From positions 1-30,318 of IMG/VR virus record IMGVR_UViG_3300034160_000014: 30,318 nt of DNA. One strand, given 5' to 3'. Below the pieces are notes generated by a model. It made no database searches. It was not told the DNA's origin and was given only the letters and a program-made list of their open reading frames with translations. Every line of letters starts with the position of its first letter. Within the stretch, counting starts at the first letter, position 1. This document shows, in pieces, positions 1 through 30,318 of this stretch. The DNA is from a virus. The translations under genes and the position numbers were made by a program.

Positions 1-2555
1 GCAAATCCATTACCGAAGATTGATTGGGCAAGATTTGCGGCAAGTGCATCTGATACCATCCTGTCCAACATCTGCTTGAATCTGTCTCCCAATGAACTCA
101 ATTTGCCTTGCATTAAGTCAAAGAAGAAGTCAGACATTGCAGACTGCATTCCCTTTGCTGCTTCTTGCCAGAAAGTAGAGACCTCCTCTGCGGTCTTCTT
201 ATTGAGGTCAGTGAGTCTCTTGGACTGGCTCTCCACATAACGCACATAGTCGTCTTCACTAATCTTCTTTGTCTCAAGTAGGCCTGCTGCAAACTGGATG
301 TTCTTCTGTACAGAAGCATTGATTGCTGCTTCAGATGAATCAATAATACCATTTACAACAGCAGCATCCTTCAATGAAGCAGACAGTGTTTCCTTGTTCT
401 TGACAATATTAGAAGTAGCATTTGCAATCTGTGCTGCATGTTCTGGAGACAGCCCTTCAGTAATCTTTGCAAGGCGGAGTTCTTCACGCTTAGTAGCAAG
501 CAGGCGCTCACGCTCATCTGCTGACTTGCCTGTTAGTGTAAGTTCATATTCAAGAAGAGCAACTTGTTCCTGCTCTGCCTTTACTTGCTTCTGTGCATTG
601 CCAAATGCTTGCTCTTCCTTAGTACGAGCAATGCGCAAGTCAACTTCCTTTGCAAGGTCAATAAGGGCAGCCTTTTGTGCTGGTGTGAATGCCTTGAACC
701 TACCCTGTTCTGTTTCAAACAGTGTCTTCTCTGCAACAGTTGCTTCCTTTGTCAAATCAATCTGACGAAGCATGTCTTCCTTTGCCTTGGCAAATTCATC
801 TACCTTAGGAGTACCTTCCTTCTTCGGTGGTGGCTTTGCTGCTTCTGATTTGGCCTTCAGTGCTGCTGCTTCTGCATCAGTGCGCACCTTCTCATCTGCA
901 GTACGGGCATCCTTTACTGCATTTATCTTCTTCAGTTCAGCATCGTACAGTTCAAGTCTGTACTTGATAAAGTCTGCATTGGATGGGCCGATTGTGCCTG
1001 CCTTTTGGGCTGCTTTTGCTTGTTCTGAAAGTTGTGCACGTCTTTCAGGAGAAATCTGCATTACCTGTTCACGAAGTGCGCCGTACTTGTTTGCTTCATC
1101 AAAAACACTTCTGATTGACTTGATAGAAGAAGCGGCCCATTCAGATAGACTGGTTACAATGTCGCCAGTGTATTCACCTATAGAATTCTTCAGTCCCTTC
1201 CATGCAAGTCCAAGGTCAGAAACAGCCTTCTCCTGCTCACCACCCTTCTTGACAAGATTGTCAGTGGCAGTTGAACCGAATTTGTCTACACGGTCTGAGT
1301 ACTCACCAAATTTGTCTCCGGCTTCCTTGATGGCAATAGACTGGTCTCTGAAGTTAGGACCAAGCAACTGTACAATTGCTGAAGTGGCCTTTGCAGACTT
1401 GCCAATCTGCTCGTAGTTCTTTACGATAAGTGCAGCGACTTCTTCTGGCTTCTTGTCCTTGATGTCATCTAATGCAATACCAAGTGATTCGAATGCGTAA
1501 GTTGTCTTCTCATTATCTTCATCCATCTTGTTCATGGACTTTGACAACTTGTCATAGACACGCTGCATTGCTTCTACAGAACCGCCATTCTCCTCTGCAA
1601 TGAGGGTTAGTGCTTCAAGTTTGTCTCTTGAAATACCTAACTTCTGTGCCATCTCATCAGAAGCATCTGCTGCTGAACGGGCAGAAACTGCTATTGCTGT
1701 GACTGCTGCCGCTGCAATAGCGGCCACTGCGGAAATAGATGCTATACCTGTAGCCGCAGATGCAGTGAATGCAAGTACATCTGCTTTCCCTTCTGCCATT
1801 AATGCTGCAGTCGCTAAATCTTTAGCCTCTGCTCTAGCAGGTCTAACTGTATCACGGAAAGTATCTCTTAGTGCTAATCTTTCTGCTCTACGTTCAATTG
1901 CAAGGTCAGAGCCATTTGCTGCTCTAGCAATACCAGAGGCAGATTTCTTTTCATAATACTTCCTCTCCATTTCTGCGAGAGCTTCCAATGCAAGCTTTTC
2001 CTTAGCCATTGCAGCAATTGCATCTAGACTTGCTTGCTTAGCTGCTTCTTTTGCGGCTAAGATAATCCCAGATAATCCCTTATATGCACCGGCTGATACT
2101 ATAGCACCACCTGCAAGTTGTCCTGCACTTACTTTTGCTGCTTCACCTACCGCTGTAGTTGAATGTGCTGCTGTTTCTGCATCAGAACTGAACATCTTGA
2201 AGATGCCACCAACACCGCCTGCAACCAGACCGGCCAGCATCTTACCTGCAGAACCCAATTGAGTTGCAAGGCCTAATGCTGCATCTGCTGCCCTGTCACC
2301 ACCTTGTGTTACACTGTTTAGTTCACCAATGATGCCGTGGATTGCACTACCTGCCTTACCGGCATCTACAGAAACACCCTTTAATCCGGTGCCTACAGTA
2401 TTGACTGCAGTCGCACCCTTCTTCTCCATAGCGGCCAGTTCTGCAGCAGCACCTTCTCTAACACCCTTAGCGAATTCATTGAGCAACCCATTCAGATTGG
2501 TCAATGGGCCAGACATCTTGTCTATTAGTTCTGCTGTGACTTTCAAGTCGCTCAT
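1..2555 (-). CDS. Tail tape measure protein, lambda gpH-like (3' end outside window)
   Basis: This gene sets tail length and forms the core around which the tail tube assembles. About 851 residues are visible, beginning MSDLKVTAELIDKMSG, and the frame is still open at the window edge, so the C-terminus is missing. It has alternating alanine-rich amphipathic and coiled-coil segments, a hydrophobic stretch rich in A, I and V around residues 260-290, and near the visible end a segment (MSDFFFDLMQGKLSSLGDRF, then an alanine-rich stretch) that resembles the conserved C-terminal region of lambda-type tape measures. The start is the ATG at 2555 behind AAGGGGAAATC. It follows the G/GT chaperone genes directly, as in lambda. 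The family assignment comes from pattern and gene order; the order makes it secure. Confidence 0.93.
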   Translation of the reverse strand, partial: MSDLKVTAELIDKMSGPLTNLNGLLNEFAKGVREGAAAELAAMEKKGATAVNTVGTGLKGVSVDAGKAGSAIHGIIGELNSVTQGGDRAADAALGLATQLGSAGKMLAGLVAGGVGGIFKMFSSDAETAAHSTTAVGEAAKVSAGQLAGGAIVSAGAYKGLSGIILAAKEAAKQASLDAIAAMAKEKLALEALAEMERKYYEKKSASGIARAANGSDLAIERRAERLALRDTFRDTVRPARAEAKDLATAALMAEGKADVLAFTASAATGIASISAVAAIAAAAVTAIAVSARSAADASDEMAQKLGISRDKLEALTLIAEENGGSVEAMQRVYDKLSKSMNKMDEDNEKTTYAFESLGIALDDIKDKKPEEVAALIVKNYEQIGKSAKATSAIVQLLGPNFRDQSIAIKEAGDKFGEYSDRVDKFGSTATDNLVKKGGEQEKAVSDLGLAWKGLKNSIGEYTGDIVTSLSEWAASSIKSIRSVFDEANKYGALREQVMQISPERRAQLSEQAKAAQKAGTIGPSNADFIKYRLELYDAELKKINAVKDARTADEKVRTDAEAAALKAKSEAAKPPPKKEGTPKVDEFAKAKEDMLRQIDLTKEATVAEKTLFETEQGRFKAFTPAQKAALIDLAKEVDLRIARTKEEQAFGNAQKQVKAEQEQVALLEYELTLTGKSADERERLLATKREELRLAKITEGLSPEHAAQIANATSNIVKNKETLSASLKDAAVVNGIIDSSEAAINASVQKNIQFAAGLLETKKISEDDYVRYVESQSKRLTDLNKKTAEEVSTFWQEAAKGMQSAMSDFFFDLMQGKLSSLGDRFKQMLDRMVSDALAANLAQSIFGNGF

Positions 2556-2564
2556 GATTTCCCC

Positions 2565-3232
2565 TTATCCGTATCGTAAGTGGTTGATATGACGTGTTGC
2601 GTCTTGCTCATCAATGTTTCCAGAAGCAACTCTCATATCAGATATAGTACTTATTCTTTTGAAGTTATCGTATTGAAGTCCGGCCTTCTGGAAAAGCATA
2701 ACCTGTCTAATAGTCAACTTCATAACTTCATCATATCTAAAACCCCTACTGATAATGTCCATCATCGTAAGTGTCCACGGGTAATCAATTAGTACATCGT
2801 CTTCTTGAGAAGAGGCATTACCCGTTTCGTAAAAAAACTGACATTGACTGCCAAGAATTGAATCATCATTTCGATGCCGACATCAGAGTCTAGTGTGTCA
2901 AAGAAGGAACGTGGCTTACCAATGTTCAGTGCAAGTGCTTGCATTACATCATCGCCTGCTTCTGAAATAATGTGCATAATGGCATCAGTAGTGTCAACCT
3001 TGCCTTGCTGATAGTAGTGCGCATAAAGGCCACCTACATTACGTAGGAGTTTAAGTACTGCCGGCAACTGGCCAAATTTGAATGGGGTGATTCTAATCTT
3101 TTCACCATTGACTTCGAATACCTTGTCTTCTTCAAAGAGTACTTCGAGTTCATTGACAACCTTGTTGGTGTCTGGCTTAATCGTGCTTGCTCGAGCAAGC
3201 ATCTGCTCTTCTGTTAACAATTCTGTGGTCAT
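2565..3232 (-). CDS. Tail assembly chaperone GT fusion made by -1 frameshift
   Basis: This is the long form of the chaperone that keeps the tape measure protein soluble and recruits tail tube subunits. It reads 3232 to 2831, slips back one base on TTTTTTT, and continues 2831 to 2565, giving about 222 residues. The -1 frame is open without interruption from the slip site through the downstream reading frame, and the extension contains MKLTIRQVMLFQKAGL before ending in HINHLRYG. No ribosome binding site suited to independent translation is evident before the internal ATGs at 2765 and 2762. The position between the tail tube and tape measure genes matches lambda G/GT and its many counterparts. 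The fusion is inferred from the sequence and has not been shown experimentally. Confidence 0.85.
2778..2837 (-). promoter_or_regulatory. Programmed -1 frameshift signal (slippery heptamer plus stem-loop)
   Basis: On the minus strand TTTTTTT (2837-2831) is aligned as T TTT TTT with the zero frame. After a 6-base spacer, CGGGTAAT (2824-2817) pairs perfectly with ATTACCCG (2785-2778). Inside the loop TCTTC and GAAGA (2813-2800) form a second small hairpin. The zero-frame stop lies in the loop. Slip site, spacer and downstream structure together match known -1 frameshift signals. Confidence 0.82.
2789..3232 (-). CDS. Tail assembly chaperone, gpG-like short form
   Basis: This is the unshifted 147-residue product of the same gene, starting MTTELLTEEQMLARAS. 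The ATG at 3232 is chosen because AGGAATCA lies just upstream; a longer reading frame to 3268 would run into the palindrome region. It is a soluble, mainly helical protein without membrane segments, with a middle part (ITPFKFGQLPAVLKLL) typical of phage tail assembly chaperones. In lambda, G is made in large excess over GT and both coat the tape measure protein during tail assembly. The gene ends at TAA 2789-2791, which lies inside the predicted frameshift stem-loop. Confidence 0.87.
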   Translation of the reverse strand: MTTELLTEEQMLARASTIKPDTNKVVNELEVLFEEDKVFEVNGEKIRITPFKFGQLPAVLKLLRNVGGLYAHYYQQGKVDTTDAIMHIISEAGDDVMQALALNIGKPRSFFDTLDSDVGIEMMIQFLAVNVSFFTKRVMPLLKKTMY

Positions 3233-3299: not shown

Positions 3300-3872
3300 T
3301 TAGGCTTCGTCCTTGATAGCGACGTAGAAGAACTGCGACTTGCCTGCAGTCGTAATGGTCGTGTCAGGCAGAAGAGCACCAGCGACAGTGAACTTGGCAG
3401 TCGAAGTACCTAGCAAGCTAAGTGCTGAAGCCACGTTCATGTAGGCACGGTGAGCACGCACGAGAACAGAAGTTCCAGAGCGGTTCATATTCTTGCCTTC
3501 AAACACAATGCAGTACTCACGTGCATCAGTAGCAGTGAATGCTTCTGTCAGCGTGTCGTAAGACGATGCAGTGCCACCACCAACTGGAGTGACAGACTGA
3601 GAAGTAGTCGTTGTACCCAGGATAGCACGTGCAAGGTTAGCACCATTGAAGTTGAGGATGTCAAGCGAGAAGTTGACATCAAGTTGCGTTGCCGAATAAA
3701 CAGACTTGACGCGTGCGCCAGACTGGGATTCGTACACACTGTCAAAAGCTTCTGTTTGAGTGATTTCAAACTTGTCAGCATCGCCAATTTCAGCGAATGT
3801 GCCAAGAGTACCGTCTGTTGCGCGAGTTGCAATCCAAACCTTACCTTGACCTCTGTAGTAGTTAGTAGCCAT
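3300..3872 (-). CDS. Major tail tube protein
   Basis: The 190-residue protein beginning MATNYYRGQGKVWIATR is the likely tail tube subunit, which stacks as rings around the tape measure. It is beta-rich with few charged helices, and contains FEITQTEAFDSVYESQSG, then LDVNFSLDILNFNGANLARA, then a C-terminal domain ending in SQFFYVAIKDEA. The length is usual for siphovirus tube proteins. The start is the ATG at 3872 with AAGGAGCAAAA upstream. It lies directly before the G/GT chaperone and after the tail terminator candidate, exactly where the tube gene is expected. Function rests on gene order plus composition. Confidence 0.82.
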   Translation of the reverse strand: MATNYYRGQGKVWIATRATDGTLGTFAEIGDADKFEITQTEAFDSVYESQSGARVKSVYSATQLDVNFSLDILNFNGANLARAILGTTTTSQSVTPVGGGTASSYDTLTEAFTATDAREYCIVFEGKNMNRSGTSVLVRAHRAYMNVASALSLLGTSTAKFTVAGALLPDTTITTAGKSQFFYVAIKDEA

Positions 3873-23714: not shown

Positions 23715-24458
23715 TTAGTATGTTGGTCCTGTAGCAGATGAATACTTCTTAATCAAATCCTGCTTCATTTCACTAGTAGTATGCAACATATCAAAATAGA
23801 CATCGTCAGCATAATTTCTAGCATCTCGGGCCTTAGTCAATTTCTCTTTTGCCTTCTTAATCTGCTTGTCACATTCAACGCAAGTAATCTGGCCAGATTT
23901 GCGTAATTGAATAATTTCTGCTTTGCGCCTACGGAACTCTGCAATTTCACGGTTCTTTGCTTCAGTTAGTGAGACGACCTTTTTGTAAGTAGCAATCAAT
24001 TTCTTTATTGCATCCCTATATTCACTGTCTAACTCATAGAAGCTTGAATGAATATCATGTGGTTGTTTACTACCTTTGCCTTTACTTAGATTGTACAAAA
24101 GCTTCTCATCAACACCTTTGACAATTTTGTCTTGTTCTGCATCTAATTCTGCATTAGTAGCACCTGGCATAGACTTCAGAATATCAATGTAGAAACTTCC
24201 TACACCGTACTTACGAATATCTTTGCCTAATTGTACACACCCAAAGAATGAATTGGCATTATCAAATGTCCAATATCTCTGGAGCCAGTGAAGCATAACT
24301 GCTCTGCGTCTATCTGGCCTTGTGGAATTACAGATGTACATCCGGCCAGTATTCTTGCAGATGACAGCACATACTGCTGGTTGCTTAAAATAAGCCCAGC
24401 CCTGTGTCCGTATAATGTCACTTACTGGCATTGATAAGTCAAAAGGATTGCGTGCCAT
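23715..24458 (-). CDS. GIY-YIG-like protein with degenerate catalytic motif
   Basis: A 247-residue protein starting MARNPFDLSMPVSDIIRTQG (TAATG overlap at 24458). Residues 29-125 follow the GIY-YIG nuclease layout: VCAVI and MYICNS where GIY and YIG are expected, Arg at 50-51, KDIRKYG and FYIDIL, a Glu in LDAEQDKIV (E108), and LYN (N123). The first motif is lost: no GIY tyrosine, and YIG has become YIC. The C-terminal half is a long basic helical region with one CVEC pair, perhaps DNA binding. It may be a former homing endonuclease, a DNA-binding relic, or an active variant. Similarity by eye only. Confidence 0.65.
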   Translation of the reverse strand: MARNPFDLSMPVSDIIRTQGWAYFKQPAVCAVICKNTGRMYICNSTRPDRRRAVMLHWLQRYWTFDNANSFFGCVQLGKDIRKYGVGSFYIDILKSMPGATNAELDAEQDKIVKGVDEKLLYNLSKGKGSKQPHDIHSSFYELDSEYRDAIKKLIATYKKVVSLTEAKNREIAEFRRRKAEIIQLRKSGQITCVECDKQIKKAKEKLTKARDARNYADDVYFDMLHTTSEMKQDLIKKYSSATGPTY

Positions 24459-24772
24459 TATTCCCACTCCACCATTCTAGACAAAAATGAATCTTTTGCT
24501 TCTTGAGACCGAAGCCACCTGTTTAATTGCCTACGCTTATTCTTCTTTGCTTTGCGCAGATTTTCAGATTCATTATGGACAACATTCAGGCCTGAATCCT
24601 GTATCTTTGACTGTGCATCTCTGTTGTCTATCTTGATTATCTCATCTGCTCTTAGAGCATATTGCAAGTACTGTTCGGGACATTCCTGCAACAAGATATC
24701 TGCAATAAGTGCAGAGCGTTTGCGCCTTGTACCCTCTGGGGTAACTGTTGCATAATAGGTTCTTTTTGACAT
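24458..24772 (-). CDS. Hypothetical basic protein, 104 residues
   Basis: Start taken at MSKRTYYATVTPEGTRRKRS (ATG 24772, AGGAGTAAATC). It is helical and basic, with QECPEQYLQYALRADEIIKI in the middle and a strongly basic LRKAKKNKRRQLNRWLRSQE before the end. The TAA overlaps the ATG of the GIY-YIG-like gene, so the two are coupled and may act together. No domain recognised. Confidence 0.67.
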   Translation of the reverse strand: MSKRTYYATVTPEGTRRKRSALIADILLQECPEQYLQYALRADEIIKIDNRDAQSKIQDSGLNVVHNESENLRKAKKNKRRQLNRWLRSQEAKDSFLSRMVEWE

Positions 24773-25560: not shown

Positions 25561-25583
25561 TATGTATAACATCAGAGGTGCAT

Positions 25584-25952
25584 ATGCCAAACTTTAGAAG
25601 CAAATTCGAATCCACATTCTACAATAGTCTGCCAGAGAATTCAGTAACATATGAACAATCTGTGTTACATTATACAGTACCTGCTTCAGTGCACAGATAC
25701 ACACCAGATTTCCACATACCTGGAACAAACATCTGGTTAGAGACTAAAGGCAGATTTACAAATGCTGACCGCAAGAAGATGTTGCTTGTGAAAGCACAGC
25801 ATCCGGACAAGCGGATAATAATGGTATTCCAAGACGCAAGAAAGCCCATTGCAAAAGGTTCGAAGACGACCTACTCGCAATGGGCAGAGAAGAACGGGCT
25901 TGAGTGGATGAGCCCGTTAGATGCAACCAGATTTGTTAAGCTGCAGCTTTAG
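25584..25952 (+). CDS. T7 endonuclease I-like Holliday junction resolvase
   Basis: A 122-residue protein starting MPNFRSKFESTFYNSLPENS. It shows the endonuclease I nuclease core: E9, RYTPDF (D42), then ETKG (E53 and K55), and downstream DRKKMLLVKAQHPDKRIIMV and KGSKTTYSQWAEKNGLEW, all aligning well with T7 gp3. These enzymes resolve branched DNA before packaging. The ATG at 25584 has AGAGGTG upstream; a GTG two codons earlier is unlikely. It is the only plus-strand gene, divergent from the small genes and overlapping the fibre gene's end by 4 bases. Confidence 0.93.
   Translation: MPNFRSKFESTFYNSLPENSVTYEQSVLHYTVPASVHRYTPDFHIPGTNIWLETKGRFTNADRKKMLLVKAQHPDKRIIMVFQDARKPIAKGSKTTYSQWAEKNGLEWMSPLDATRFVKLQL
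25893..25918 (-). terminator. Intrinsic terminator of fibre operon inside the endonuclease gene
   Basis: AACGGGCT/AGCCCGTT form a perfect 8-bp stem with a 10-base loop, 31 bases beyond the fibre stop on the minus strand, followed there by CTTCTCT. On the plus strand it lies within the endonuclease coding region, so it should only matter for the minus-strand transcript. Confidence 0.55.
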
Positions 25953-27874
25953 ATGTTGAATGATGTAGAATCTATTAAATGAATTCCATATGTTGAAATA
26001 TCAAGTGCATACACCATGTACCGTCTAATGTAATACTTACCTGAAGCAAGTGCGAAAGCTGTCTGACCTAAAAATTCAAAGGTTCCTGTTCCTGTAGATT
26101 TCACTATCAATGTCAATATCATACCAGTATAACTTGAACTTATCGGCGCCGAAAAACCAATTGCAGCTGATGTCAGCCCACTTTCAGCGTAGTAACTATT
26201 ATTCAATGCAACTGAAACAATGCCAGCAGCAGAAAATGTATGAGAAGTAGGTGTTATCCATTGTGGACCTTGCCATACATTAGCCACATTTGTAAATGCT
26301 GTAAATGTTGGAGTACCTATTACCCCTAAAACGCCACTTGCAGCACTAATAGTCACATTATCTGGTTTAACAATGCCGTATGTTGAAGATGTGGCATATG
26401 ATATTGATGGGATAGAAAGAACACCACTTCCGTCTACTACAACTGTTGTATTATCTGGTTTAACTGTACCAAATATAGTAGAAGTAGAGGTAGGAATTGA
26501 AAGAACACCATTTGCACTAATGTTAATTGTGGTAGTGTCTGCCCTAACTACACCTACTGTCGTGCTTGTTGCCTTTATTGCTTGAAGAGTGCCATTTACA
26601 TCAACACTTATTGTTGCGGCATCTGGTTTAACAATACCCAATGAAAACGATGTTGCAGTTGGTAGAGGCGCTGTAAGTACGCCTGCAGAAACTGTTACTG
26701 TGACTCCATCTGGACGAACAGTACCAAACGTCGAAGTAGTTGCTATTGGAACAGAAAGTACGCCTGCTACTGTCGTTATAGTGGTGTTATCTGGACGAGC
26801 AATGCCTAGTACAGTAGAAGTAGCAGTGGGAACAGACAGTACGCCTGCTGCAACAGTTGTAGATGTGTTGTCTGGACGGACAAGACCAAGTACTGCAGAT
26901 GTCGCAGTAGGTGGAGAAACAGCAGAAAGAACGCCAGACGAAATAGTCATGGATGTGTTGTCTGGACGAGCAATACCTAGTACAGCAGATGTTGCAGTAG
27001 GAATAGAAATAGTTCCGCTAGATACTACTACTGTAGTTCCGTCAACCTTTACAACACCAAGAGTTGAAGTACTTGCTGTTGGTGGAGAAACAGCAGAAAG
27101 AACGCCAGACGAAATAGTCATGGACGTGTTGTCTGGACGAGCAATACCTAATATTGCAGATGTAGCAGTGGGTGGAGAATTTGTTGAGGAAATTACTCCA
27201 GAACCGTTTATTGTTACAGATGTGCCATCCACCTTAACAACACCGAGAGTTGTTGTGCTTGCAGTAGGAACTGAAAGCTGATTTGACCCATTGTAAACAA
27301 TTGTAGTGCCATCAATCTTTGCAATACCCTTTTGTGTAGTGCTGGCATCTAGCAATTTTGTAGTTCCATCTCCGAGAATTGAAAATTGAGCAGCATCTGG
27401 CTTCACAACACCATACACCGTACTAGAAGCAACTGGTACAGAAATGACACCAGATGAGATTTGCACAGTAGTTCCGTCTGGGCGAACAGTACCAAACGTT
27501 GAAGTAGTTGCTGTTGGAACAGAAAGTACACCAGAAGAGATATTCAAAGTTGAATCTGGCCGCAGGATACCCTTTGTAGAAGCAGTTGCAACAGGCAATA
27601 CTGCAGAGATAACCCCATCTGTAGCAGTGATTGTACTTCCATCTACCTTAACTACACCATATGCTGAAGTAGAAGCATGTGTGATGAGTGAGGCAAGAGA
27701 ATTGTTTGTTGCAGATGTAATGCGACCCTTACCATCAACAGTGAATGTTGGTAGTGAATACGAACCGGCTGTAACACCTGATGCAGTGAGTTCTGGCAAA
27801 AGACCATTGTTGCTACCTGCAAGGTCGCCAGTTAATTTGATTTCGCCGAGAGTTGAATTTGTTGCTGTAGTCAT
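25949..27874 (-). CDS. Repeat-built tail fibre protein B
   Basis: A 641-residue protein starting MTTATNSTLGEIKLTGDLAG (AAAGGATAAAC). The N-terminal 65 residues (LTASGVTAGSYSLPTFTVDG, then KGRI) form an attachment-type domain. About 16 repeats of 26-30 residues follow, of the form ATxSTxGxVxPDxTTVxxSSGVLSV, akin to phage fibre repeats of the STTQKGI kind. The last 110 residues, without repeats, form a likely receptor-binding tip (ending YGIHLIDSTSFNI). It is paralogous to the next upstream gene. It probably forms long trimeric shafts. No enzymatic or chaperone domain is seen. Confidence 0.85.
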   Translation of the reverse strand: MTTATNSTLGEIKLTGDLAGSNNGLLPELTASGVTAGSYSLPTFTVDGKGRITSATNNSLASLITHASTSAYGVVKVDGSTITATDGVISAVLPVATASTKGILRPDSTLNISSGVLSVPTATTSTFGTVRPDGTTVQISSGVISVPVASSTVYGVVKPDAAQFSILGDGTTKLLDASTTQKGIAKIDGTTIVYNGSNQLSVPTASTTTLGVVKVDGTSVTINGSGVISSTNSPPTATSAILGIARPDNTSMTISSGVLSAVSPPTASTSTLGVVKVDGTTVVVSSGTISIPTATSAVLGIARPDNTSMTISSGVLSAVSPPTATSAVLGLVRPDNTSTTVAAGVLSVPTATSTVLGIARPDNTTITTVAGVLSVPIATTSTFGTVRPDGVTVTVSAGVLTAPLPTATSFSLGIVKPDAATISVDVNGTLQAIKATSTTVGVVRADTTTINISANGVLSIPTSTSTIFGTVKPDNTTVVVDGSGVLSIPSISYATSSTYGIVKPDNVTISAASGVLGVIGTPTFTAFTNVANVWQGPQWITPTSHTFSAAGIVSVALNNSYYAESGLTSAAIGFSAPISSSYTGMILTLIVKSTGTGTFEFLGQTAFALASGKYYIRRYMVYALDISTYGIHLIDSTSFNI

Positions 27875-27884
27875 TGTTTATCCT

Positions 27885-29840
27885 TTATAAGGTTATCTGA
27901 CCAGTTGAATGAATTATACCAAATGCTGTACCAGATTTTTCAAAGATAGTTAATTCTACCCTGTATAAAGCACCACCAACTACATTAGTTATATTTGTCT
28001 CTGGGTAAAACCACGTTGGCTCAAAATGAAATGACTTAGCGTAATCATTTTTCAATATCATTGTGCATGATAGAATTGTGCCAGACGGTACAGATACGCC
28101 CGACAATGTCAAATCAACATCGTCAGTTGCTGACAGTAATATTGAGCCAAGTTTGCTTGATGGAATATTGTAAATTCCACTAACTGGTGTGAATATACCG
28201 GGTAGTACATTATAATGTTGACATTTCGTAAACGTATTTGCAGTGTTTACATCAGCAATGGCTGTACTTAAAACACCACCTGCATTGACTATACCGGGCG
28301 AATTGCCAATAACTATTCCGAATTCAGAATAAGTTGCCTTCTGTACGGAAATAACACCTGCAGTAGTTTTAAGTAATGTTCCTTCTGTCTTAACTACACC
28401 ATTAGTAGTCGAAGTCGCTTTTGCTGCGGATAGAACACCATCTGAAATAGTTATTGTTGAATTGTCGGGTTTAACTACACCATTAGTCCCAGTCATTTCT
28501 GATATAAAAATAATAGGAGCTAGAGGAATTGATATAACTCCTTGCGCGGTTATATCAAGTGTAACACCACATTTAACTTTACCAGGTGTTGTTGATGTTG
28601 CTATTGAAGGTTGAACAGCAGTTAGTGCACCACTTACTAGTGTTATAGTAGTATTGTCTGGTCTAGCAACCCCAGGTGATGCAGTTGTTGCAAGAGGAAT
28701 TGATAGAACACCGCTTGCAATAGTAGTAGTTGTGTTGTCTGGTCTAATCTTGCCAAGTACAGCATTAGTTGCTGTTGGTACTGATAGAACACCGCTTGCA
28801 ATAGTAGTAGTTGTGTTGTCTGGTCTAATCTTGCCAAGTACAGCATTAGTTGCTGTTGGTACAATATAAGAAAGAACGCCAGCAGATGCAGTAACAGTGG
28901 TACCATCTGGTTTAACTACACCAAGTGCTGCTGAAGTTGCAGTATTAGCACTTAGAACATTACTTACGTCTATTGTGAAATTTGATGAGCTTGGTATAAC
29001 CAGTCCAGCAACAGTATCAGTAGCAATACGTGAATAGAACAGATTTGTTAGAATACCTGAACCGTCAACAGTTACAGTTGTGTTGTCTGGTCGTAGTACT
29101 CCTAATACGGCAGAAGTTGCTGTTTTGCCAACTGAAATAATACCATTGGATAATCCAATGGTGTTCGTGTCAACCTTCACTAGTCCGGCAACTGTAGTTG
29201 ATGCAACATTAGGAACTGACAGCACACCTACTGTATTAACAATTGTAGAACCGTCAATCTTGAATATACCACGTTGTGTAGTGCTGGCATTAGATGCTGA
29301 AAGTGTGCCACCACTCATTGTCAGTCCATCAGTGTTTGGCTTGATTCGACCCACTGCAGAAGTAGTTGCAAGCGGAACTGAAATAGCACCACCCGTGTTT
29401 GTGATATTTACACCAGTCTTTACTAGACCAGCATAAGGGGTGTCTGCGATAAGTGGCCTGATTTCACCATCAACTATTCCAAGTGATGAGTTGTCAACTC
29501 GTGCAATGCCGAGTTCTGTTGTTGTTGCATCAGTTAGTGTGAATGCATTGCAACTGATTAGTCCATCAACATCATTAATGTTAGTACCAATCTTTGCAAC
29601 ACCATACTGACTGGCAGATGTCTTGTCTATAGGACCCGCTGGAGCCGACTTTGCAAATATCACACGTCCCTTGCTGTCAATGACAACTTGTGGAATTGTC
29701 ATCGAGTCATAGTTAGTGTAATGAAATGAGTACGTACCTGGTGTAACACCTGTTGCTCTTAGTGCTGGTGCCTCTCCAGTTCCTGTCAGGTCACCAGAAA
29801 GTACAATTTGTCCTTCTGTTGCGGTTGTTGCTACTGTCAT
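27885..29840 (-). CDS. Repeat-built tail fibre protein A
   Basis: A 651-residue protein starting MTVATTATEGQIVLSGDLTG, the ATG being fixed by an ATGA overlap with the upstream fibre at 29837-29840. The layout is the same as in its neighbour: an N-terminal domain (LRATGVTPGTYSFHY, then VIDSKGRV), about 16 degenerate repeats (such as ATNAVLGKIRPDNTTTTIAS), and a non-repeat C-terminus from about residue 525 ending IIHSTGQITL. The two middle copies are identical in DNA. It is likely a fibre component, perhaps partnered with its paralog. Confidence 0.83.
   Translation of the reverse strand: MTVATTATEGQIVLSGDLTGTGEAPALRATGVTPGTYSFHYTNYDSMTIPQVVIDSKGRVIFAKSAPAGPIDKTSASQYGVAKIGTNINDVDGLISCNAFTLTDATTTELGIARVDNSSLGIVDGEIRPLIADTPYAGLVKTGVNITNTGGAISVPLATTSAVGRIKPNTDGLTMSGGTLSASNASTTQRGIFKIDGSTIVNTVGVLSVPNVASTTVAGLVKVDTNTIGLSNGIISVGKTATSAVLGVLRPDNTTVTVDGSGILTNLFYSRIATDTVAGLVIPSSSNFTIDVSNVLSANTATSAALGVVKPDGTTVTASAGVLSYIVPTATNAVLGKIRPDNTTTTIASGVLSVPTATNAVLGKIRPDNTTTTIASGVLSIPLATTASPGVARPDNTTITLVSGALTAVQPSIATSTTPGKVKCGVTLDITAQGVISIPLAPIIFISEMTGTNGVVKPDNSTITISDGVLSAAKATSTTNGVVKTEGTLLKTTAGVISVQKATYSEFGIVIGNSPGIVNAGGVLSTAIADVNTANTFTKCQHYNVLPGIFTPVSGIYNIPSSKLGSILLSATDDVDLTLSGVSVPSGTILSCTMILKNDYAKSFHFEPTWFYPETNITNVVGGALYRVELTIFEKSGTAFGIIHSTGQITL
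28701..28862. repeat. Perfect 81-bp tandem duplication within fibre A
   Basis: The units 28701-28781 and 28782-28862 are identical and encode one 27-residue fibre repeat each. Identity at third codon positions, unlike the diverged neighbouring repeats, indicates a very recent duplication. Confidence 0.95.
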
Positions 29841-30318
29841 GTATTCACCCATGTTCCAGTTGAAAGTAGAACCTTCAGCTTGCTAGAAATAGTGTTGTAA
29901 TATGTTGCACCAGCATGAAGTCCAGAAGTGGATGGGTCAGCAGAAAATTCGCCCCTGTAAGTCTTGTTGTCAACATAGTCCTTACGTGTCAGGTCAGAAG
30001 CAGCAGATGGTACAGTCTGGTAATTGATTGTTGCAGCAATAATCTCAGTAGACGCATTTGCTGTCTTAATTACAAGAGAAGAAGTGTGGTTTGCATAATT
30101 GCCAGAAACCAGTTTGCCCCAGAACAAGTACGGTTCGAACCCGCCAGTACCCCAGTTGCCACAGGCTATTGACAGGAAATCACTGTTAGCAGGGTCTGTC
30201 TTGTTGATTGCAGAGAACTGAGCTCCAGAGCCAGTTGCAGCACCAGGCATTGCCCCAGTCATAGTGAATGGGTTTGATGTAGAAGTTGTTTGAAACCATT
30301 GTCCTGTAGTAAAGCTGA
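29837..30318 (-). CDS. Tail fibre protein, 5' end outside window
   Basis: The frame is open to the right window edge, with SFTTGQWFQTTSTSNPFTMT preceding the apparent ATG at 30262, so that ATG is internal and at least 160 residues of a longer protein are visible. The segment SDLTRKDYVDNKTYRGEFSA resembles the K/R-DYVD joints common in fibre proteins, and HAGATYYNTISSKLKVLLST looks like a C-terminal fibre domain. It ends in the ATGA overlap with fibre A. It is probably the proximal fibre or a fibre connector. Confidence 0.75.
   Translation of the reverse strand, partial: SFTTGQWFQTTSTSNPFTMTGAMPGAATGSGAQFSAINKTDPANSDFLSIACGNWGTGGFEPYLFWGKLVSGNYANHTSSLVIKTANASTEIIAATINYQTVPSAASDLTRKDYVDNKTYRGEFSADPSTSGLHAGATYYNTISSKLKVLLSTGTWVNT

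Follow-up and report, generated by a model that had tools for sequence, protein, structure and literature searches.

A putative -1 ribosomal frameshift signal in the tail assembly chaperone gene of an uncultivated phage

The gene for a tail assembly chaperone in an uncultivated phage carries a run of seven T close to its 3' end, where a second open frame runs past the stop codon up to the gene for the tape measure protein. Are both frames joined by a ribosomal frameshift as in phage lambda, and which elements around the site would stimulate it? The window analysed here (30,318 bases) corresponds to a complete IMG/VR record and has its structural genes on the minus strand. Judged from sequence comparison, it very probably harbours a -1 programmed ribosomal frameshift of the lambda G/GT type. 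The initial annotation had proposed a frameshift cassette for the tail chaperone, and gene order, family assignment, a homologous -1 domain and the near-universal conservation of T TTT TTY among relatives speak for it. A tail-chaperone frameshift signal is thereby documented in an uncultivated phage without close relatives.

Gene order and reading frames at the heptamer

Gene G (2789..3232, minus strand) starts with the ATG at 3232, stops at 2789 and encodes a zero-frame product of 147 aa. Residues 25-145 match phrog_1442 (tail assembly chaperone) with E=2.1e-21, which assigns G to this family, and the identity to its relatives is 21-40%. Against PF20336 (DUF6631) G reaches 18.1 bits and stays below the Pfam gathering cut-off of 27, i.e. 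it is not a member by this measure, while the relative in phage JBD93 scores 277 bits. Directly upstream of G lies the gene for the major tail protein (3300..3872, minus strand; phrog_807, E=3e-27). On the other side the tape measure protein gene (1..2555, minus strand, 3' end off the window) matches phrog_8462 and other tape-measure families with E down to 2e-12. The chaperone ORF is flanked by the genes for the major tail protein and the tape measure protein, as is characteristic of G/GT loci. The order major tail protein, G, T, tape measure is identical in the phages Summit, JBD93 and DLP_5.

A further mark of G/GT loci is a heptamer X XXY YYZ in phase with G and close to its 3' end. Here it is T TTT TTT (2831..2837, minus strand), in phase with G by the codons AGT TTT TTT (S-F-F). 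An in-phase slip heptamer, a -1 frame open across the junction and a zero-frame stop within the loop of a downstream stem had all been claimed before, and each of them is borne out. The heptamer occupies 2837-2831 inside the ORF 3232..2789, the -1 frame stays open between 2831 and its stop codon at 2567-2565, and the TAA of G (2789..2791, minus strand) is located inside the stem loop, 39 nt past the slip site. Counting both strands, T6Y occurs once in the 30,318-base window as compared to 12.9 (sd 4.4) expected by shuffling. After a slip the -1 frame (T domain, 2565..2831, minus strand) comprises 88 codons. It is open, contains a conserved domain and ends just before the tape-measure ATG (2555), again in agreement with the G/GT arrangement. 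The predicted GT fusion has a length of 222 aa, and its predicted junction peptide reads ...VNVSFF in the zero frame followed by YETGNASSQEDD... in the -1 frame.

Homology of the -1 frame and conservation of the slip site

A T-domain HMM was built from the -1 frames of 16 relatives with the window left out. Using hmmsearch, this model recovered the -1 ORF of the window with E=6.7e-11, and the other ORFs of the window were not significant. A comparison of the -1 domain with the T domains of the relatives by hhalign gave E=3.4e-9. Conserved positions include a W, a G and a T..Q..LF motif. At the level of sequence, this homology is the strongest evidence for translation of the -1 frame as an extension of G, and the combination of a candidate slip heptamer with a homologous -1 domain is far beyond what chance would produce.

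DNA similar to the window was not found in phages, and direct scans of viral and genome contigs with G or the major tail protein of the window yielded no relatives. Another 80 loci came from a profile scan of viral contigs, and GenBank phages including Summit, JBD93 and DLP_5 are distant relatives with the same gene order. The non-redundant set comprises 43 loci with a mutual identity of <80%, window included. The search pattern of the profile scan held Phe-Phe, i.e. the amino acids were ascertained and the synonymous choice was not, and T TTT TTY is in phase at the same Phe-Phe codons in 43 of 43 loci (30 T TTT TTC, 13 T TTT TTT). Throughout this set the codon preceding the heptamer ends in T and the -1 frame is open over 56-123 codons. 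Other Phe-Phe pairs in those loci show T TTT TTY in 2 of 81 cases versus 43 of 43 at the site (Fisher P=2e-31; related sequences are not independent, hence this and the other P values for conservation are indicative only).

A second scan was based on an alignment that stopped before the Phe-Phe motif. It found T TTT TTY in 17 of 20 loci, several of them on contigs shared with the first scan. The three remotest loci of this motif-free scan (L140, L144 and L145) have no Phe-Phe, carry an in-phase A AAA AAA or A AAA AAC nearby and exhibit a similar domain in the -1 frame after the poly-A heptamer. The initial annotation had named relatives that keep both frames but not heptamer and stem as evidence against the cassette. 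The outcome is divided, with the heptamer kept and the stem (see below) not.

In this chaperone family the GT fusion can be annotated reliably by its poly-U site, which sits at two fixed phenylalanine codons. The -1 part of the fusion is often unannotated or entered as separate proteins of unknown function.

T-domain fragments (from L042, L043, L049, L054 and L114) are found in PHROGs as separate families of unknown function, namely phrog_13355, phrog_8022 and phrog_10839, so that annotation would seem to overlook the frameshift product in many cases. The pattern F-F-T-K-R-V-x-P was discarded as a search motif. It retrieved only the L054/L055 contigs, which are devoid of the stem of the window, and two apparently unrelated loci.

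Elements flanking the slip site

Downstream of the heptamer an 8-bp stem (CGGGTAAT/ATTACCCG, 2824-2817/2785-2778) had been described with a 6-nt spacer, a 31-nt loop and a second hairpin nested therein. The stem is present and the loop has the given length. The stem is, however, 9 bp long, as A2825-T2777 also pairs, with ACGGGTAAT as 5' arm (2817..2825, minus strand) and ATTACCCGT as 3' arm (2777..2785, minus strand). By the same pair the spacer shrinks to the 5 nt ACGAA (2826..2830, minus strand). Structure within the loop is predicted as well, in the form of two small hairpins instead of one, TCTTC-TCAA-GAAGA (2800..2813, minus strand) and a weaker CGAT...ATTG (2786..2799, minus strand). RNAfold combines the stem and both hairpins into a three-way junction (-15.8 kcal/mol). 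Stem-loop-stimulated -1 frameshifts are characterized by a stable structure 5-9 nt past the heptamer, and the 9-bp stem behind a 5-nt spacer conforms to this.

The fold of the 60 nt downstream of the heptamer has a z of -2.5, with 4 of 200 shuffles being equally stable. A longer stretch of 113 nt folds at z = -1.3 only, and within the 20 kb structural part 12.6% of the local windows match or exceed the stability at the site. Taken alone the stem is moderately significant and unlikely to be chance. It might nevertheless represent a chance inverted repeat without a role while the heptamer works, a rival to the part of the stem only, which we consider possible but improbable. A shared stem was not found in the relatives, the distant ones having no homologous counterpart, and frameshifting in some tailed phages seems to be stimulator-free (PMC5009743). 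On the other hand, a perfect stem of at least 9 bp starting at the canonical distance of 4-8 nt downstream is present at 0.4% of minus-strand positions and in 0.1% of shuffles, and the one in the window is the longest perfect stem at that position among the 43 loci. Moreover, given the encoded amino acids, the three codons of the 3' arm would occur together with a probability of 0.02, and the window is devoid of the upstream Shine-Dalgarno (SD)-like element carried by most relatives. The stem is probably a lineage-specific stimulator.

Taken over the whole family, no evident structure follows the site (mean z -0.73 versus -0.43 at control positions). The local-structure rank past the slip site averages 0.31 and is better than uniform, but may reflect base composition because dinucleotide shuffles give little support. 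The collections searched contained no close relatives in which covariation of the stem would show.

Upstream of the heptamer most relatives (among L043-L146) possess an SD-like GAGGT or GGAGGT at a distance of ~10 nt, embedded in Glu-Val codons and resembling the stimulator of dnaX. Glu is encoded by GAG in 28 of 29 E-V-N loci as compared to ~16 expected (P=1.3e-7), and the anti-SD duplex energies are lower than in synonymous shuffles (-8.0 versus -4.9, P=6e-10). In the window an SD-like element ~10 nt upstream of the heptamer is absent, with a duplex energy of -2.1 versus ~-10 in many relatives; hence the window does not count among dnaX-like SD-stimulated -1 frameshifts. A trade-off between strong stem and weak SD-like element was considered and is unsupported (Spearman 0.00, P=0.99, 50 loci). 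We tentatively envisage, as a rather doubtful scenario, that T TTT TTY has hardly changed as the slip site of this family, in contrast to variable stimulators. GAGGT would prevail, the window would have lost it and turned to a three-way-junction stem, and the remotest branch would have replaced poly-U by poly-A.

Probable origin of the predicted fusion and comparison with known systems

If the ribosomal frameshift operates as predicted, most ribosomes would read G to the stop at 2789 and release the 147-aa chaperone. A minority would move back by one base at U UUU UUU, where the tRNA-Phe in both P- and A-site can re-pair with UUU, and would pass the stop in the -1 frame to generate the 222-aa GT fusion. 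The frequency of slippage is probably increased by the 9-bp stem 5 nt downstream, at which ribosomes would pause. By analogy with lambda, G would bind the tape-measure protein and T would recruit the major tail protein, and the G:GT ratio would matter for tail assembly. A point against this model comes from E. coli constructs, in which A AAA AAG promotes slippage better than U UUU UUU does (PMC5009743).

A fusion could also arise from transcriptional slippage, whereby the T7 run is transcribed with one U too many or too few and the altered mRNA is translated normally. Polymerases do slip on homopolymer runs (PMC3711429) and the run of the window counts seven T, yet bacterial cases are described for runs of ~9 A or T (PMC5009743). 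In 30 of the 43 loci the run is limited to T6 with a C behind it, and the site is always in the codon phase X XXY YYZ, which is relevant to ribosomes only. With a run of just six T in most relatives and an invariant codon phase, we regard transcriptional slippage as very unlikely. That T is a separate gene translated from its own ATG (2765 or 2762) without any fusion is hardly credible, as the ATG-ATG codons in the -1 frame and the short T fragments listed in databases as own families (phrog_8022, 47 positions) are outweighed by a homology that starts upstream of these codons and includes the conserved W at T residue 20, by the lack of an evident ribosome-binding site before them on reading the sequence, and by the conservation of the heptamer, which would be left without reason.

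The predicted ribosomal frameshift is of a kind known from tailed phages. The finding is correct and ordinary, with a modest interest in the variation of stimulators. In lambda the G/GT heptamer is GGGAAAG and differs from T TTT TTT of the window; the likeness drawn here is one of arrangement. Both systems have the chaperone gene before the tape measure gene, a -1 shift near its 3' end and T as a C-terminal extension (PMC5009743). The initial annotation regarded the poly-T heptamer as a departure from lambda. This does not single out the window, as such sites are ordinary in this chaperone family and in P2-like phages. T6G is known from P2 and T7G has been reported for Smp131 (PMC3931495). P2 E/E+E' resembles the window by a poly-T slip site, a -1 shift and its place in tail assembly genes (PMC3931495). 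In contrast to these likenesses in arrangement, its contractile tail sets P2 apart.

In the Stenotrophomonas phage Summit (MZ326862) G and T are homologous to those of the window and the slip site is the identical T TTT TTT. GenBank annotates a joined 'tape measure chaperone frameshift product' in Summit at the same place. Its zero-frame stop is located 93 nt past the site in contrast to 39 nt in the window, and a comparable stem is missing.

JBD93 is a Casadabanvirus, which we take to be a member of the D3112 group. Its T TTT TTC shares the FF codons, the -1 direction and the place before the tape measure gene with the window, whereas the last base of the heptamer is C instead of T, the 9-bp stem is absent and an SD-like element is present upstream, which the window has not. 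A T TTT TTC frameshift has been published for the tail assembly genes of PaMx73, a D3112-like Pseudomonas phage (PMC4378225).

The cassettes of E. coli dnaX and IS911 have a downstream stem as stimulator, the role that is probable for the stem of the window, and in IS911 the stimulator is a three-way junction (PMC5009743) as predicted for the window. In contrast to the window, dnaX slips on A AAA AAG and also uses an upstream Shine-Dalgarno stimulator.

Apart from the tail genes, two adjacent long ORFs of 641 and 655 aa are located at 25949-29852 on the minus strand of the window. They consist of degenerate repeats of the type LGxVRPDNTTxTxxxGVLS and match the virion structural protein family phrog_27494. 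An endonuclease gene at 25578-25952 (phrog_945, E=7e-35) stands alone on the plus strand, the other recognised genes being on the minus strand. A weak match to a homing endonuclease family (phrog_7168, E=7.5e-7) is seen at 23715-24467 on the minus strand.
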